Shown: positions 22,013 through 27,983 of the stretch, piece by piece
Layout of the letters: each line of letters starts with the position of its first letter
How positions within the stretch are numbered: position 1 is the stretch's first letter
Position numbers and translations under genes: made by a program
The notes under the pieces: model-generated
What the model saw: the letters and a program-made list of their open reading frames with translations, nothing else
Databases searched by the model: none
What the model was told of the DNA's origin: nothing
Origin: Billgrantia sulfidoxydans
GTDB lineage: Bacteria; Pseudomonadota; Gammaproteobacteria; Pseudomonadales; Halomonadaceae
Direction of reading: 5' to 3'
Length of the DNA: 64,000 bases
Assembly (NCBI RefSeq): GCF_017868775.1
Contig: NZ_CP053381.1
Coordinates: 2,728,001-2,792,000 of the forward strand

Positions 22013-22046
22013 TGTGCCAAGGAGAACGGAAGAGGCAGGAGGTGTC

Positions 22047-22472
22047 GTGAGCTACGCGATCTCGCTCAAGCGTATCTATAGTCCGCACGCACCGGAAGAC
22101 GGTGCGCGAGTTCTGGTCGATCGGCTCTGGCCCCGCGGCAAGAGGCGCGAGAGCCTGGCGCTGACCGAGTGGTATCGGGACGCCTCCCCGTCGCCCTTGT
22201 TGAATCGTCAGCTACGTCAGGATGAAATCAGCCCCAAGGTCTTTGCGGTACGCTACCGTGGCGAGCTACGCGACCATCCCGAGTGCCTGATTCCTCTGAT
22301 GCGATATGCCCGCCAGGGGAAGTTGACGCTGCTTTCCGCGGCACGCAACCTGGAGGAGTCCTATTTACCTCTGCTGCGGCAGGCCCTGCTGGAGGCGCTA
22401 AGGCAAGAAGATGCCGAAGATCTCGAGCCTGCATCGCCTCCGTGCTATCGGCACCAACTGCGGGATGAGTAA
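22047..22472 (+). CDS. DUF488 (YeaO-like) protein
   Basis: A 141-residue cytoplasmic protein carries the family signatures RVLVDRLWPRG, LTEWYRDASPS and the LTLLSAARN motif near the C-terminus. The function is unknown. The GTG at 22047 is preceded by AGGAGG at 5-nt spacing, which decides the start over the ATG at 22014. It is convergent with the low-GC operon 40 bp away and is the last high-GC gene before it. Confidence 0.85.
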   Translation: MSYAISLKRIYSPHAPEDGARVLVDRLWPRGKRRESLALTEWYRDASPSPLLNRQLRQDEISPKVFAVRYRGELRDHPECLIPLMRYARQGKLTLLSAARNLEESYLPLLRQALLEALRQEDAEDLEPASPPCYRHQLRDE

Positions 22473-22512
22473 CTGTCCGGTGCCGGATACCTAGGCGCCA
22501 CCGTGAGGTTCG

Positions 22513-23478
22513 TCATCCTCTCGATCCTGCGCGCATGTATCTCCTGATCCGCCCCCTCGCCGGGCCATCGAACAGGTAGTAGAGCAGATATGCCAGCACC
22601 ATGGGGTCACGCAATGCCAGGCAAGTCCTCACCAGCAGGTTCAAGTCGATCTCCGTTCCTGCGCTCCTGCACAGGGATACATAGCGCTTGAGAAAAAGCC
22701 TCATCCGTCGATGGATGAACGTGGTGAGCTGCCTGTCCCTCACTTTCCGGTTGAGCCTCAGGAGGGTCCTGACGGTAGCATGCATGCCCTGAACGTGCTT
22801 GGGGACCTTGTGCTGGGTCATGGTCGAGTTCAGTCTTATGCGTCTTTCAAAGTAAACCTGCTGCGTCACCAGAAAGCGTCTAGCGGCCATCACCAACGGG
22901 TAGAGGATGCATTCATCCTCATGAAAGTGTTGGATGAACCTAAGCGAGGCATCGGACCATAGGCGGCGCCTGCTCATGTACAGACAGGTCGAGGCGGAAA
23001 ATCTTCCGCTAGCACGGAACGCTTCGAGAAGTTCTATCGAGGACTCGAAGACTCCATCAAATCCCCTGCCATATTCCAGCTGGATGATGCTTTCATCGAC
23101 GCCGTCGTAAAAGCTCCTTCCCGAGAAGAAAACAATATCAGGAAAAGCATTGTTCTCTGCCAAACTTTTCATATCGGCTATGAAGTCCGGCGTCACCAAG
23201 TCATCCGAGTCGAAAAAATAGACGTATTCACAACTAGCCAACGAAAGTCCCAGGTTTCTGGCACTTCCCTGCCCTTGGTTGCTGGTAGAAAGAATTTTGA
23301 CAGGATAGGGATGTTGGAATTTTTCAACCAATGCCAGGGTATCATCCGTGCTGCCATCATCGATAATGATGACTTCATCGGGAAGAACCACCTGGCTTGC
23401 CATGGAGGCTAGCGCCTCCATGACGTAATGCGAGACGTTGAATGCCGGCATGATCACACTGATGCTAGCCTTATTCAT
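22513..23478 (-). CDS. Family 2 glycosyltransferase
   Basis: The 321-residue GT-A enzyme has the N-terminal SVIMPAFNV strand, the nucleotide-sugar motif DDGSTDD (residues 40-46), the QGQGSARNLGL segment and the metal-binding DSDD (90-93). The C-terminal part is basic and helical and probably peripheral to the membrane. The ATG at 23478 has GGAG at 5-nt spacing, so the longer frame to 23529 is not used. It is the last gene of the low-GC operon and likely builds a surface glycan; donor and acceptor are unknown. Confidence 0.88.
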   Translation of the reverse strand: MNKASISVIMPAFNVSHYVMEALASMASQVVLPDEVIIIDDGSTDDTLALVEKFQHPYPVKILSTSNQGQGSARNLGLSLASCEYVYFFDSDDLVTPDFIADMKSLAENNAFPDIVFFSGRSFYDGVDESIIQLEYGRGFDGVFESSIELLEAFRASGRFSASTCLYMSRRRLWSDASLRFIQHFHEDECILYPLVMAARRFLVTQQVYFERRIRLNSTMTQHKVPKHVQGMHATVRTLLRLNRKVRDRQLTTFIHRRMRLFLKRYVSLCRSAGTEIDLNLLVRTCLALRDPMVLAYLLYYLFDGPARGRIRRYMRAGSRG

Positions 23479-23501
23479 TGTCGCTCCGTATCGACTCGTC
23501 A

Positions 23502-23993
23502 TCATTTTCTTTGCCCATCCCGCATGCACCTTCTGGCAAAGAAAATCATCCTGTTACTGGTGTAGGTTCTTCGGTAGTAAAGATGACTCCTACCAAACCC
23601 CCAAATCACAAGTGTGGATATTTTTTCGCGCAAGCACATTTTCTCGACAAAATCTTCATTCAAGTCGATTTTTACCTTTGACCCGTCCTTCAGGTCAAAA
23701 ACCTCTCTGAGTTTTTTGTCAGAAAGAATTTCCATAATATGGAATGGCGTGCCTTGCCAACGATAGATCCAGACAGGCTGGCCGGCTATGAAAGCCGGCC
23801 AGATAAAGCGCCTCCCATTATCGAATTTCTTGGCGCAAGCGACGCGCAGCTTAACGCCATCGTCAAGGACGATATTCAAGGAACCTGGGAAGATGCGCAG
23901 CCCCGTGAGATGTTCTATCTCCTCGACGGAATGAGCTATATGTTCGTTAGCCCTCCCCCTCCCTGAAGACACGATCCCCTCAACCCTTCTCAT
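23502..23993 (-). CDS. CTP-dependent riboflavin-kinase-like protein (DUF120/RibK fold)
   Basis: The 163-residue protein shows the pattern of archaeal RibK, which phosphorylates riboflavin with CTP. It has an N-terminal EGIVSSGRG strand and glycine loop, FPGSLNIVLD at residues 35-44 (the GxLN core), and KKLREVFDLKDGSKVKI at 93-109, close to the archaeal KLRE...LKDGD block. A basic tail of about 50 residues follows. Bacteria normally make FMN with the unrelated RibF, so in this glycan-type operon it more likely phosphorylates or cytidylates another small molecule. The assignment rests on motif recall, not a search. Confidence 0.65.
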   Translation of the reverse strand: MRRVEGIVSSGRGRANEHIAHSVEEIEHLTGLRIFPGSLNIVLDDGVKLRVACAKKFDNGRRFIWPAFIAGQPVWIYRWQGTPFHIMEILSDKKLREVFDLKDGSKVKIDLNEDFVEKMCLREKISTLVIWGFGRSHLYYRRTYTSNRMIFFARRCMRDGQRK

Positions 23994-24015
23994 TCTTCAT
24001 CCCTCGAGCCGGATC

Positions 24016-25332
24016 TTAATGAATGAATTTTCCAACCTGATTGAAAGTCGGCTTAACTTGATCTTTCACCTTTCTCAAAACCTTGTTGGCGAGACGAACA
24101 GGCCTCATGGCCATTTTTCCAAAAACCCCCAATTCTCGCTCACCGAACATCGACTCGCTTAGCAATTTCACCACTTCCTTGTTGATATGAACGCCAACGT
24201 CTATGGGTTTTTCGTAGTAATAGTTATTTGATTTCAGATATCCCTTGAGCAGGCCACCCACTTGCACGTTATCATGTACATTGACATCCTGATACCAACC
24301 CCACTGCTTTTCCCTTGCAATCTCTTCGAGCAGCGCGACATAATTTTCACCAACACGACTCTTATGCACCTTACAGTGATAGAGGAGCGAAAAGAAGAGA
24401 TCCTCCAGCTCGGGAACAAAGAAATTTTCATGCTTCTTCCTGCGTTCCAGCATGTCCTTCTCCCACGAACAGGGGTAATAACCATCTCCCACGAATCGAA
24501 TATCGACAGGTATCGTATTGCCTGCAATATCGATAGTTCCTTTGTAAGGCCTTCCACGCTTCTGGTAGACGTTGGCCGCCGAGGCCAGTTTCTGAAAATC
24601 GGAACAAAGGAAATCCACGTCACCACAGCCGGATCTGACAGGAAGATTTTCAAAATTTCTCAGCACAAGGTATTTAACACAGTTATTCAGGACTTCAAAT
24701 GGCTCATTCCAGTCCCGCCAGCCATTGGCTCCCTCTAGATCCTTGTGTATGTCTTTCTTTATCGGAACATCGGAAGACAGACACTCGCGAAGAAGTTCGC
24801 TACCGAGAACGAGCGACGTCTGGAAGATAAATTCCTCGTAATTGTTGCTGGAATGCACCTGGTACGCTTTATCAAACCAAGCGCGAAACTCATATTTTTT
24901 CTTCACGATATTTCGGTTAGAAAGCTCTATGTTACCGGATACATTTCGAATCAAGGTGTACTGTGGCTCCAGATCCTCAACAATAATGAAGCGAAACGGG
25001 GGCTTTCCGATTTTCCTGTCGTACCCTTTGAACTCAAGTGATCCCGAGGGTCTTTGGTAGAGGCGCTGAATATTCCTATTATAATTCCGCTCTGACCAAT
25101 ATATATTGTAATCGCCCAGTATATTAAAGTTTCGCCTTATTCCTTCAACGATCTCACCTTCTTTGCTTCGCCCCCCCTCCCATATGGCAAAACATGAGAA
25201 GTCTCGTCTTACCACACCCCTCCTTTCCTGCAACAAGGCTGGCTCACTCGCAGGCTCCCGCGCTTTTTTCGCAAGCTTGAACATGGTGCCAGACTCAGCC
25301 GAACTCCCATTCACGCGCCCGATAGTATTCAT
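24016..25332 (-). CDS. Unrecognised protein with nucleotidyltransferase-like motif
   Basis: I cannot name this 438-residue protein. Around residues 230-280 it has SGCGDVDFL followed by PVDIRFVGDG, which resembles the G...DhD and distal acidic strand of the polymerase-beta nucleotidyltransferase fold. The N-terminal 200 residues are basic and include KAYQVHSSNNYEEF, which I recall only vaguely from surface-polysaccharide clusters. There is no signal peptide or membrane helix. The composition is A/T-rich. The ATG at 25332 is used; one at 25284 is possible. A role with the neighbouring glycosyltransferase is inferred from the operon. Confidence 0.55.
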   Translation of the reverse strand: MNTIGRVNGSSAESGTMFKLAKKAREPASEPALLQERRGVVRRDFSCFAIWEGGRSKEGEIVEGIRRNFNILGDYNIYWSERNYNRNIQRLYQRPSGSLEFKGYDRKIGKPPFRFIIVEDLEPQYTLIRNVSGNIELSNRNIVKKKYEFRAWFDKAYQVHSSNNYEEFIFQTSLVLGSELLRECLSSDVPIKKDIHKDLEGANGWRDWNEPFEVLNNCVKYLVLRNFENLPVRSGCGDVDFLCSDFQKLASAANVYQKRGRPYKGTIDIAGNTIPVDIRFVGDGYYPCSWEKDMLERRKKHENFFVPELEDLFFSLLYHCKVHKSRVGENYVALLEEIAREKQWGWYQDVNVHDNVQVGGLLKGYLKSNNYYYEKPIDVGVHINKEVVKLLSESMFGERELGVFGKMAMRPVRLANKVLRKVKDQVKPTFNQVGKFIH

Positions 25333-25361
25333 TTTTCATCTCGCTCTGGCTTTTCCGATAG

Positions 25362-26249
25362 CTAGACGGCTTGTATAATTTCTTCACGTTTCGGCCATAA
25401 TCGTTCTTGTAAATGCCGCTCGAATCGGCGGCGGAAAATTTCGACAGCCTCATCCTCTGTATACAACCCGCGCCTAACATTAGGCCATAAATGGGCTTCC
25501 TCGAGCCTGATGACGGGGTTATCCTTATCGAACAACATGGGAATACTATCTATTTCCAGAGCCAGACATATCGCAACACGATGCCAGCCATGCCTTGGCT
25601 GGATGATTTCCTCTCCCTCAGTGGAAAATATTCTACCCCTGATCAGCCCGAACTCCTCCTTCAGCCCTATGCGCTTGATGGACTCATAAGCCTCGATAAG
25701 CCTTTTCAGCTCCATTTCCACCAACTTGGGGGAGACTGGGCCAAAACCTTTCCAACCATCCTCCTCGCGCCAGGCTTCAAAACCATTCTTTCGCGCCTCG
25801 TCGCGCATCAACTCGATGCGGAACTCCTTCTTCTCCTCCGGCGTCGACGCATCCCAAGGGTAAACATAAGCAAGTGGATCCAGGCGAAGCCACTGCTTGT
25901 TGGGCACGACATTCAGAAACTCGGCCACATTCTTTGGCTGGAATTCATCAAAATAATGGGAAAAGAACCGCAGTGCCGCATCCCTTCCACCGCGTTCATA
26001 GGCGCGAATCACCTGGATCCAGATGTGCATCAGGTTGGTGCATGCCAGCAGGGCAAGCGGCACGTCTACCACGTATCTGCGCTGCTTGCTCGAATACATG
26101 CCTTCCAAAGGAGTGGGACACCTTCCCGGTGCCCTCATATCGTGTATGAGAGCCTGCTGTCTTTCGATTCTGTAACCGGCCAGGCGCAATGGCCCAGCAA
26201 GACACGCTCTGACAATCCCTCTTCCCCACGCGCCCAGCGTTCGTTTCAT
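25362..26249 (-). CDS. Hypothetical protein with ParB/sulfiredoxin-like C-terminal region
   Basis: The 295-residue protein is first in the low-GC operon. Near the N-terminus it has a basic, partly hydrophobic stretch. Residues 200-240 read as a strand (GLIRGRIF), then IIQPRHGWHRVAICLAL, then IDSIPML, the order seen in ParB/Srx-fold domains (a GHHR-like box followed by a helix and an h-P-h strand). That fold includes nucleases, CTPases and kinases, so no activity is assigned. A run of G residues serves as the ribosome-binding site just before the ATG. Confidence 0.55.
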   Translation of the reverse strand: MKRTLGAWGRGIVRACLAGPLRLAGYRIERQQALIHDMRAPGRCPTPLEGMYSSKQRRYVVDVPLALLACTNLMHIWIQVIRAYERGGRDAALRFFSHYFDEFQPKNVAEFLNVVPNKQWLRLDPLAYVYPWDASTPEEKKEFRIELMRDEARKNGFEAWREEDGWKGFGPVSPKLVEMELKRLIEAYESIKRIGLKEEFGLIRGRIFSTEGEEIIQPRHGWHRVAICLALEIDSIPMLFDKDNPVIRLEEAHLWPNVRRGLYTEDEAVEIFRRRFERHLQERLWPKREEIIQAV

Positions 26250-26316
26250 AGCCCCCCCTCGGCCAATCGACTCGGCAACATGCCCGTTCTGCAGGATTTG
26301 TCGACGGTTCCCCTCC

Positions 26317-26424
26317 TTACGTAATCAAGACGTCAAACTCCCGGCCTCGGAAAGAACAAACTGCAACCTTTCGATACTCAAGATCACACAGCTCGCGCAG
26401 CGCTGCGTATATCATTTTTCTCAT
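26317..26424 (-). CDS. Possible 35-residue ORF or gene remnant upstream of the low-GC operon
   Basis: Reading from the ATG at 26424 gives a 35-residue basic peptide beginning MRKMIYAALRELCD and ending DVLIT. There is no clear ribosome-binding site. It may be a leader peptide, the remnant of a lost first gene of the operon, or chance. The frame can be extended upstream to 26559, but that part is high-GC and unlike the rest. Confidence 0.2.
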   Translation of the reverse strand: MRKMIYAALRELCDLEYRKVAVCSFRGREFDVLIT

Positions 26425-26533
26425 GCTTTTTTGCGAGCCCAGCGCTATGCCCCTAGAGCGGTGGCGTACTGGCCGGGTGTCAGCGTGGGAAACGCTTCCT
26501 TGGGCGTTGCAGGGTGGCCCATGACGGTAGGTA

Positions 26534-26562
26534 CACGTGCCGGTTACGGCGACCGGCACGTG
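26534..26562 (-). terminator. Strong hairpin 32 bp after sthA, without T-run
   Basis: CACGTGCCGGT and ACCGGCACGTG form a perfect 11-bp stem around a 7-nt loop. It is placed as expected for the sthA terminator, but the minus strand continues TACCTACC instead of a U-tract. It may block exonucleases or end transcription inefficiently. Confidence 0.45.
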
Positions 26563-26594
26563 GAAGCAGAGGGGCCTGGAGCGGGACGGAAGAG

Positions 26595-27983
26595 TCAGAA
26601 CACCCGGTTCAGCCCATTCTGTGCCGCCACCCGGTAGGCCTCGGCCATGGTAGGATAGTTGAAGGTGGTGTTGACGAAGTACTTGAGGGTATTGGCTTCG
26701 CCGTTCTGCTGCATGATCGCCTGGCCGATGTGGACAATCTCCGAGGCCTGGTCGCCAAAGCAGTGGATCCCGAAGATCTCCAGGGTGTCCTGATGAAACA
26801 GGATCTTGAGCATGCCCACCGTATCGCCGGTGATCTGGGCACGAGCGGTATCCTTGAAGAAGGCCTGCGCCACCTCGTAGGGCACCTTGGCTTCGGTGAG
26901 CTCACGCTCGGTCCGCCCGAATGAGCTGATCTCGGGAATGGTGTAGATGCCCGTCGGCACCTCATTGACGAAGCGATAGTCGCGCTCGAGCAATTCGTCG
27001 CAGGCGTTGAGCCCCTGGTCGTAAGCGGCGCTCGCCAGACTCGGCCAGCCGATCACGTCACCGGCGGCATAGATATGCGGGATGGCGGTACGGTAATGGT
27101 CGTCGACCTGGAGCTGGCCGCGCCCGTTGGCTTCGAGGCCGATGTTCTCCAGGCCAAGTTCATCGGTATTGCCGGTGCGGCCGTTGGCCCACAGGAAGGC
27201 GTCGGCACGCAGTTTCTTGCCCGACTTGAGGTAGACCACCACCCCCGACTCGTCGCCCTCGACCCGCTCGTACTCTTCATTGTGGCGGATCAGCACGCCA
27301 TGCTTGCGGAGGTGGTAGGAAAGCGCATCGCTGATCTCGTCGTCGAGAAACGAGAGCAAGCGGTCGCGGCTGTTGATCAGGTCCACCTTGACGCCAAGCC
27401 CCGAAAAGATCGAGGCGTATTCGCAGCCGATCACGCCAGCACCGAAAATGACCAGCGTGCGCGGCGTGTGGGAGAGACTGAGAATGCCATCGGAGTCGTA
27501 GATGCGCGGATGGCGGAAATTGATGTCCGCGGGCCGGTACGGACGCGAGCCGGTGGCGATGATGATCTTCTGCGCCACCAGTTCCTCCAGCGCCTCCTGG
27601 TCGCGCACCAGCAGGGTGTGCTCATCCTTGAAGCGAGCCACCCCGCTGAACAGATCGATGCGATTGCGGGCATAGAACTTGGTACGCATCTCGACCTGCT
27701 GATCAATGGTGATACGCGAGCGTTCCATGACCCTGGGAAAGGAGAACCAGCGTGGCTCGCCGATGTCGCGGAACATGCGGTTGGTATTGAACTGCATGAT
27801 CTGCTTCACCTGGTGGCGCAGCGCCTTGGAGGGGATGGTCCCCCAGTGGGTGCAGTTGCCCCCCAGGACCGGCTGCTTCTCCACGACCGCCACCCGCTTG
27901 CCGTGCTTGGCGGCGTTGATGGCGGCGCTCTCGCCGGCGGGTCCGGTACCGATCACCACCACGTCGTAGTTATGGACTGCCAT
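26595..27983 (-). CDS. sthA: Soluble pyridine nucleotide transhydrogenase
   Basis: SthA moves reducing equivalents between NADPH and NAD+ in the cytoplasm. The 462-residue flavoprotein has the N-terminal FAD loop [13 protein letters not shown] and the [15 protein letters not shown] segment. Here C44 is retained but the second redox cysteine of the disulfide reductase family is threonine (T49), which is normal for SthA and separates it from lipoamide dehydrogenase. The NAD(P) loop [15 protein letters not shown] and the C-terminal dimerisation domain follow. It stands alone between the low-GC operon and nqrM. Confidence 0.96.

Follow-up and report, generated by a model that had tools for sequence, protein, structure and literature searches.

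Among the described systems closest to the locus considered here, the Lic phosphocholine pathway employs the kinase LicA, the cytidylyltransferase LicC and LicD, a transferase of the nucleotidyltransferase (NTase) fold. CpsC, an NTase-fold enzyme of the LicD family, is reported to act as a transition transferase for the glycerol-phosphate linkers of Gram-negative capsules, and the product of CpsA and CpsC has been termed a wall teichoic acid homologue (both in PMC11666461). Herein, we describe a four-gene operon of Billgrantia sulfidoxydans (Halomonadaceae), found in a window of 64,000 nucleotides (contig NZ_CP053381.1, positions 2,728,001 to 2,792,000). Like LicA/LicC/LicD and CpsA/CpsC/TagD/TagF, it brings together a kinase-like protein, a cytidine triphosphate (CTP)-using enzyme and an NTase-fold or TagF-type phosphotransferase in the setting of a locus for surface glycans; homologues of TagD and TagF occur in Halomonadaceae. 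However, the kinase of the operon would be of the DUF120 CTP-dependent type, its NTase protein matches no LicD model and has an extra domain of nucleoside-diphosphate-kinase (NDK) fold, and a protein of predicted ParB/sulfiredoxin (Srx) fold belongs to the set.

We lean towards the view that the four genes are a mobile cassette building or decorating a phosphate-containing surface polysaccharide by means of CTP-linked phosphorylation and phosphotransfer. Within this proposal, a role in polysaccharide synthesis is highly probable, while the specific CTP-driven phosphorylation and phosphotransfer, which we infer, is put forward tentatively. The best reading by analogy is that the cassette would work like the Lic and Tag systems but from other enzymes. 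Each part has a known fold, and the job is like that of described systems; as for the combination of the parts and the NDK-NTase protein, both appear to be undescribed in the literature searched. In that literature, which included few subscription journals, no report tied a DUF120 or NDK-fold domain to polysaccharide synthesis in its title or the beginning of its abstract.

A low-GC operon inherited as a unit

The source is a complete genome of 4.49 Mb, whose nearest named relative by protein searches is Billgrantia antri. The operon occupies positions 22513-26249 of the window on the minus strand and consists of four intact co-directional genes separated by 22-29 bp: PB (25362..26249, 295 aa, predicted ParB/Srx fold), NT (24016..25332, 438 aa, NDK fold and NTase), RK (23502..23993, 163 aa, DUF120 or CTP-dependent riboflavin-kinase-like) and GT2 (22513..23478, family-2 glycosyltransferase). 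It is flanked by a DUF488-family gene on the plus strand (22014..22472; PF22752, E 2.5e-51) and by a pyridine nucleotide-disulphide oxidoreductase gene on the minus strand (26595..27983; PF07992, E 6.4e-71), which we take to be sthA. An earlier reading made from the sequence alone (hereafter, the sequence-only reading) had described a low-GC operon of closely spaced genes between high-GC genes, and the measurements bear this out: GC content is 46-53% in the operon genes vs. 62-68% in the four flanking genes measured, and 52-65% vs. 68-84% at third codon positions (GC3). No convincing repeat, promoter- or terminator-like site or JUMPstart-like word was found at the operon.

The same four genes occupy the same DUF488/sthA slot in B. 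antri. Between the two species, the ratio of nonsynonymous to synonymous substitution rates (dN/dS) is 0.12 for PB, 0.05 for NT, 0.05 for RK and 0.16 for GT2 (0.01 for sthA), and given these low values the four genes look maintained. Among 275 Halomonadaceae genomes, any match to the NT profile was found in 11 and a full-length NT in four, namely the window genome, B. antri (G111), G552 and G598; RK adjoins NT in all four. These neighbourhood counts leave out the weakest NT matches (G765, G828) and a C-terminal-only match in G599. Loci L110 (G598) and L111 (G552) conserve the whole order PB-NT-RK-GT2, with all four proteins diverged from those of the window to a similar degree (43-54% identity; 50-51% for GT2). 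The sequence-only reading had made its case depend on the four genes co-occurring elsewhere; L110, L111 and B. antri are such occurrences.

Outside the family, named genomes were scanned by the NT profile alone, a single pattern that returned 10 loci. RK lies directly downstream of NT in three of them: B. antri, a metagenome-assembled genome (MAG) of Flavobacteriaceae (L003) and one of Phyllobacteriaceae (L010), in which NT is split into several frames. In Brumimicrobium (L006), PB adjoins NT in convergent orientation, beside an ATP-binding cassette (ABC) transporter. Since PF01982, the DUF120 family of RK, is rare, with 8 positive genomes, the window genome among them, in a sample of 369 from the class, the pairing of NT and RK is not a chance one. 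Overall, the four genes are a co-inherited unit, probably a mobile cassette.

Predicted folds and conserved residues

The structural model of NT obtained with AlphaFold 2 (AF2) has a predicted local distance difference test score (pLDDT) of 84.7 and, as predicted, NT is a protein of two domains, an NDK-fold domain (residues 41-189; 24766..25212) followed by an NTase domain (residues ~200-326; 24355..24735). The sequence-only reading had called the protein NTase-like, which fits the second domain with its acidic residues; the NDK-fold domain had been overlooked. A structure search found the NDK fold in the model, and the VIA rows aligned to the NDK-fold half only. For the NTase half, MenT3/TglT and JHP933 stand in the Foldseek list for full-length NT at E 0.006-0.012, with root-mean-square deviations (rmsd) of 16-17 Å. 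All three catalytic carboxylates of an NTase are present: in an alignment of 41 sequences, D240 and D277 are invariant, and D238 is kept in 39 (Glu in the other two). In the NDK-fold domain, H160, R150, K146 and R90 are invariant in 41/41. The candidate catalytic residue, H160 (24853-24855), pairs with the catalytic histidine of NDK in both local and global profile alignments, a weak match (E 0.03, probability 1.6%); control alignments of NT to unrelated profiles gave E 0.16-0.67 and probabilities of 0.1-0.4%.

Compared with NDK itself (PF00334), NT differs in the fusion of its NDK-fold part to an NTase and in placing its invariant Lys146 where the profile alignment puts an NDK arginine. PF00334 gave no match in the NT of the window and matched one of the 41 relatives, at E 0.003. 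An ordinary ndk gene is also present elsewhere in the window genome. Scans of Pfam, NCBIfam, PHROGs and PADLOC assigned NT to no family at the limits used, and comparison with PDB sequences gave no matches.

Relatives of NT were found at five loci in viral contigs; they were not found in plasmids or phage records. NT also aligns over ~400 columns to models of a viral library, two of them named glycosyltransferase (E 2e-5), although these alignments are weak, with query-normalised template modelling (TM) scores of 0.25-0.27 and an rmsd of about 19 Å. Models from giant viruses (A0A481Z0W0, A0A1V0SAX2, A0A5K0UAL1) are among those aligning with NT over this length at low TM-score; that two of these three carry the name glycosyltransferase hints that the predicted two-domain NDK-NTase unit may be old and linked to glycans.

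RK scores 34.6 bits against PF01982, where the curated cut-off is 25; its counterparts in L110 and L003 fall slightly below it (24.5 and 24.2 bits). The RK profile matches the structures of RibK 2oyn, 2p3m and 3cta at E 1e-8 to 5e-8, and the segments SGRGRA and PGSLN align with RibK motifs. In RibK, G-T/S-x-N forms the metal site. Across 11 RK sequences, G11 and R12 are invariant and G37 and N40 nearly so; the copy in L010 is without the second motif (G-T/S-x-N) in this alignment. With archaeal RibK (MJ0056), RK shares a match to the profile over the whole domain, the glycine-rich start, the G-S/T-x-N motif and a C-terminal LR...DG motif, but it is bacterial, sits in polysaccharide operons and has a C-terminal extension. 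The seven other PF01982 matches of the class comprise five in contexts judged by eye to be unrelated (L050-L054), one below the cut-off (L056) and one fused to a family-4 glycosyltransferase (GT4) in G330 (L055:7045-8634). This last fusion, whose locus also has nucleotidyltransferase and sugar-dehydratase genes, independently ties DUF120 to glycan synthesis. RK was not found in phage records, viral contigs or plasmids, the RK of L110 being used for the plasmid search. As for GT2, it matches PF00535 (99.2 bits vs. a cut-off of 23.3, E 3.1e-28).

The AF2 model of PB carries a large helical insertion within the predicted ParB/Srx fold, for which fold-search matches are at low Z. The folds that the sequence-only reading had proposed for the three proteins unrecognised at the time agree with the predictions, that of PB at low Z only. 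In this fold, G-x-H-R is a phosphate-binding motif; in 20 aligned PB sequences, H223 and R224 of the motif are invariant and G221 is nearly so. PB resembles SerK, SbnI and sulfiredoxin in its predicted fold and in the motif, and differs from them in showing no sequence-level match, in the large helical insertion and in its glycan-locus context. No family rose above the cut-off for PB in Pfam, NCBIfam, PHROGs and PADLOC scans. Among PDB sequences it matched beta clamp, RNA polymerase subunit 13 and globin, and all of these were judged to be chance matches. The main text of a 2025 survey of ParB folds (PMC12704722) contains neither the word glycosyltransferase nor the word polysaccharide.

ParB/Srx-fold genes were also seen in other settings. 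In L034, L035, L038, L040 and L041, such a gene adjoins a polysaccharide-locus ABC transporter, called by sequence likeness, or sits one gene off, and no NT or RK match was found there in the stretch covered. Another layout of Halomonadaceae, seen in L113 (6296-8113, 8243-9016, 8989-10047) with relatives in L032 and L115, has a ParB-fold gene followed by genes for two NTase-like proteins and an uncharacterised protein of ~310-350 aa; none of the four proteins scanned matched Pfam at E 0.01.

The surroundings of NT suggest what RK may do. Our count, which takes in the broken copies of L010 and L117, came to 17 full-length copies of NT spread over 16 loci. RK accompanies six of these copies, a protein-kinase-like domain follows NT in four loci (L008, L116, L117 and the phage contig L090), and the two occur together in none of the 17. 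The kinase profile was built from P0063, P0064, P0068, P0069, L116 and L090, so that the matches of L116, L090 and L092 follow from its making, unlike those of L008 and L117. Because RK and the kinase domain alternate in this way across NT loci, RK is suggested to be a kinase serving the same step.

Within L090, a viral contig of 248 kb, a single phage protein (5857-7680) has NDK-fold, NTase and kinase-like parts and is flanked by genes that look glycosyltransferase-like by eye. In the viral contigs L091-L094, NTase domains are followed by protein-kinase-like domains (e.g., L091:5950-6954); a WbqC-like gene, confirmed by Pfam in L091 and with similar genes seen by eye in L092-L094, lies near glycosyltransferase-like genes. 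These NTase-kinase genes possibly serve glycan chemistry.

Surface-polysaccharide context

In L110, the cassette has a PF02719 dehydratase and an ABC transporter (PF00005) on one side, and on the other a second GT2, a TagD-type gene (CTP_transf_like, PF01467), a weak match to Asn synthase and a TagF-like glycerophosphotransferase (Glyphos_transf, PF04464, E 5e-53). The transporter, dehydratase, GT2 and TagF of L111 are 82-86% identical to those of L110, and its TagD-like gene, found by tblastn, is 86% identical to the TagD-like gene of the window genome. TagD-like and TagF-like genes therefore share a locus with the cassette in both L110 (by Pfam) and L111 (by tblastn). NTase-only relatives of NT, too, share their loci with genes of TagD type and with a PF04464 gene (L112, L115, L118). 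Such family context, with its ABC transporter, GT2, TagD-like and TagF-like genes, supports well the joint role in a surface glycan that the sequence-only reading had proposed. The phosphorylated or cytidylylated group that it imagined being attached fits the enzyme types and these neighbours, but TagD and TagF were not found beside NT in the 12 loci checked outside the family.

Two further points went beyond the sequence-only reading. One is that, in the window genome, the operon lies apart from a surface-polymer locus which in two other species is kept whole and together with the cassette. The only PF04464 gene found there by profile (174959-176059) belongs to another locus at ~162-182 kb, which also codes for a TagD-like protein, glycosyltransferases, Wza- and Wzc-like proteins, a DegT aminotransferase and a ParB-fold paralogue. 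The gene most similar to the L110 ABC transporter (66%) is in this same locus, and the PF04464, TagD-like and transporter genes all lie within 165-176 kb.

The other concerns the slot itself, which holds a different polysaccharide cluster in a relative. We inspected the DUF488 loci of 16 relatives, excluding second paralogues and the copy of the window itself. In two of them (L135, L139), sthA directly follows the DUF488 gene with a gap of less than 100 bp; in the others, it is absent from the ~1.5 kb covered, and in L137, L138 and L141-L144 the next genes are, by eye, those lying beyond sthA in the window. Four loci were extended. In G133, exactly the same slot is taken up by a cluster of polysaccharide genes of 9 kb, which includes a PF02397 sugar transferase, a PF04464 gene and a GT2, and sthA is 98% identical; in the three others, sthA was not reached within ~19 kb and many genes are polysaccharide-like by eye. 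Because of the G133 cluster, these polysaccharide-like genes and the plain DUF488-sthA junctions of relatives, the interval (22472-26595 in the window; L135, L139, L149-L152) seems to be a site of surface-polymer gene exchange in Halomonadaceae.

A putative phosphorylation pathway and its alternatives

In the pathway that we propose, RK would transfer a phosphate from CTP to a polyol or sugar hydroxyl. The NTase domain of NT might then activate the phosphate made by RK with CTP or, in the manner of LicD and CpsC, transfer a phospho-group from a CDP-linked donor to the glycan. Its NDK-fold domain would act as a histidine phosphotransferase through His160, which may recharge CDP to CTP or pass on phosphate. 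PB could be an accessory protein binding nucleoside triphosphate (NTP) or a second kinase similar to SerK and SbnI, and GT2 would add the sugar bearing or accepting the phospho-group. It is tempting to suppose a CTP-powered relay of glycan phosphorylation, in which an archaeal-type CTP-dependent kinase has been repurposed, the NDK fold regenerates CTP on the spot and the NTase installs the group, and in which NDK-NTase is an ancient module that bacteria, phages and giant viruses have repeatedly joined to one kinase or glycosyltransferase or another. However, we regard this extended scenario as rather doubtful.

Several observations weigh against the proposed pathway. In NDK, the catalytic histidine lies in N-x-x-H-G-S-D and the nucleotide-binding lysine in I-K-P-D. 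In NT, the position of this nucleotide-contacting lysine is Trp in 41/41 sequences, and the asparagine before the histidine is kept in 2/41, with Tyr or Phe in 36. Since both residues are lost, NT was not filed as an NDK and, with the weak profile support for the histidine, real NDK activity is doubtful. No Pfam match linked NT to LicD (PF04991) or another NTase family at E up to 1 for the NT of the window and up to 0.1 for the 41 members. Moreover, six of the 17 NT copies (L004, L005, L007, L009 and twice in L011) have no RK, PB or kinase domain in the stretch covered, the contigs of L004 and L009 being only 6-7 kb long, and one further copy (L006, Brumimicrobium) has PB only, in a genome that gave no RK match. 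In the window genome, where the cassette lies apart from the main locus, co-function is presumed. Finally, a search at E 1e-10 of 12 NT loci from beyond the family (L003-L011, L116, L117, L090) found nothing like TagD or TagF, which restricts the link to CDP-glycerol to Halomonadaceae; sulfotransferase-type genes occur instead in L003 (by Pfam) and in L010 and L011 (by eye). Loci of this kind argue against glycerol phosphate as a universal substrate.

The alternative that survives best, although we consider it unlikely, is that NT is a plain LicD/CpsC-like transferase of polyol phosphate or a phospho-substituent, using CDP-glycerol made by TagD of the main locus, while RK and the NDK fold are inactive or only bind nucleotides. 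The TagD- and TagF-like neighbours in the family, the loss of the NDK lysine and asparagine, and the precedent of CpsC with its glycerol-phosphate linkers (PMC11666461) are all in keeping with it. However, it would leave unexplained the invariance of H160, R150, K146 and R90, the largely retained motifs of RK and the alternation of RK with the kinase domain.

It is improbable, moreover, that the operon of the window is a decaying, functionless leftover of a replaced polysaccharide locus. Its separation from TagD, TagF and the ABC transporter and the 9 kb cluster of G133 in the same slot would be expected of such a remnant, but the frames are intact, dN/dS is low in all four genes, and B. antri has the same genes in the same slot. 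We find it very improbable that the four genes form a nucleotide-based conflict or toxin system on a low-GC island, with a ParB-type NTP switch and a MenT-like nucleotidyltransferase: the ParB fold, the low GC and the Foldseek matches to MenT3/TglT and JHP933 would suit it, but none of the four proteins matches PADLOC at E 0.01, the neighbours are GT2, ABC transporter, TagD and TagF genes, and NT-family proteins are fused to kinase or acyltransferase domains. Least credible of all is that RK is a true riboflavin kinase in an incidental neighbourhood, as its score against PF01982 and its alignment with the structures of RibK might suggest, given its pairing with NT in Halomonadaceae and in the Flavobacteriaceae and Phyllobacteriaceae MAGs and the fusion of DUF120 to GT4 in L055.

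If the proposed pathway of CTP-linked phosphorylation and phosphotransfer is true, it would suggest roles for the polysaccharide-type DUF120 protein, the NDK-NTase protein and the glycan-locus ParB/Srx-fold protein, for none of which a bacterial role was found in our searches. It would also bring CTP-dependent kinases into the making of surface glycans and would offer concrete enzymes and residues for how Gram-negative bacteria make phosphate-rich coats.

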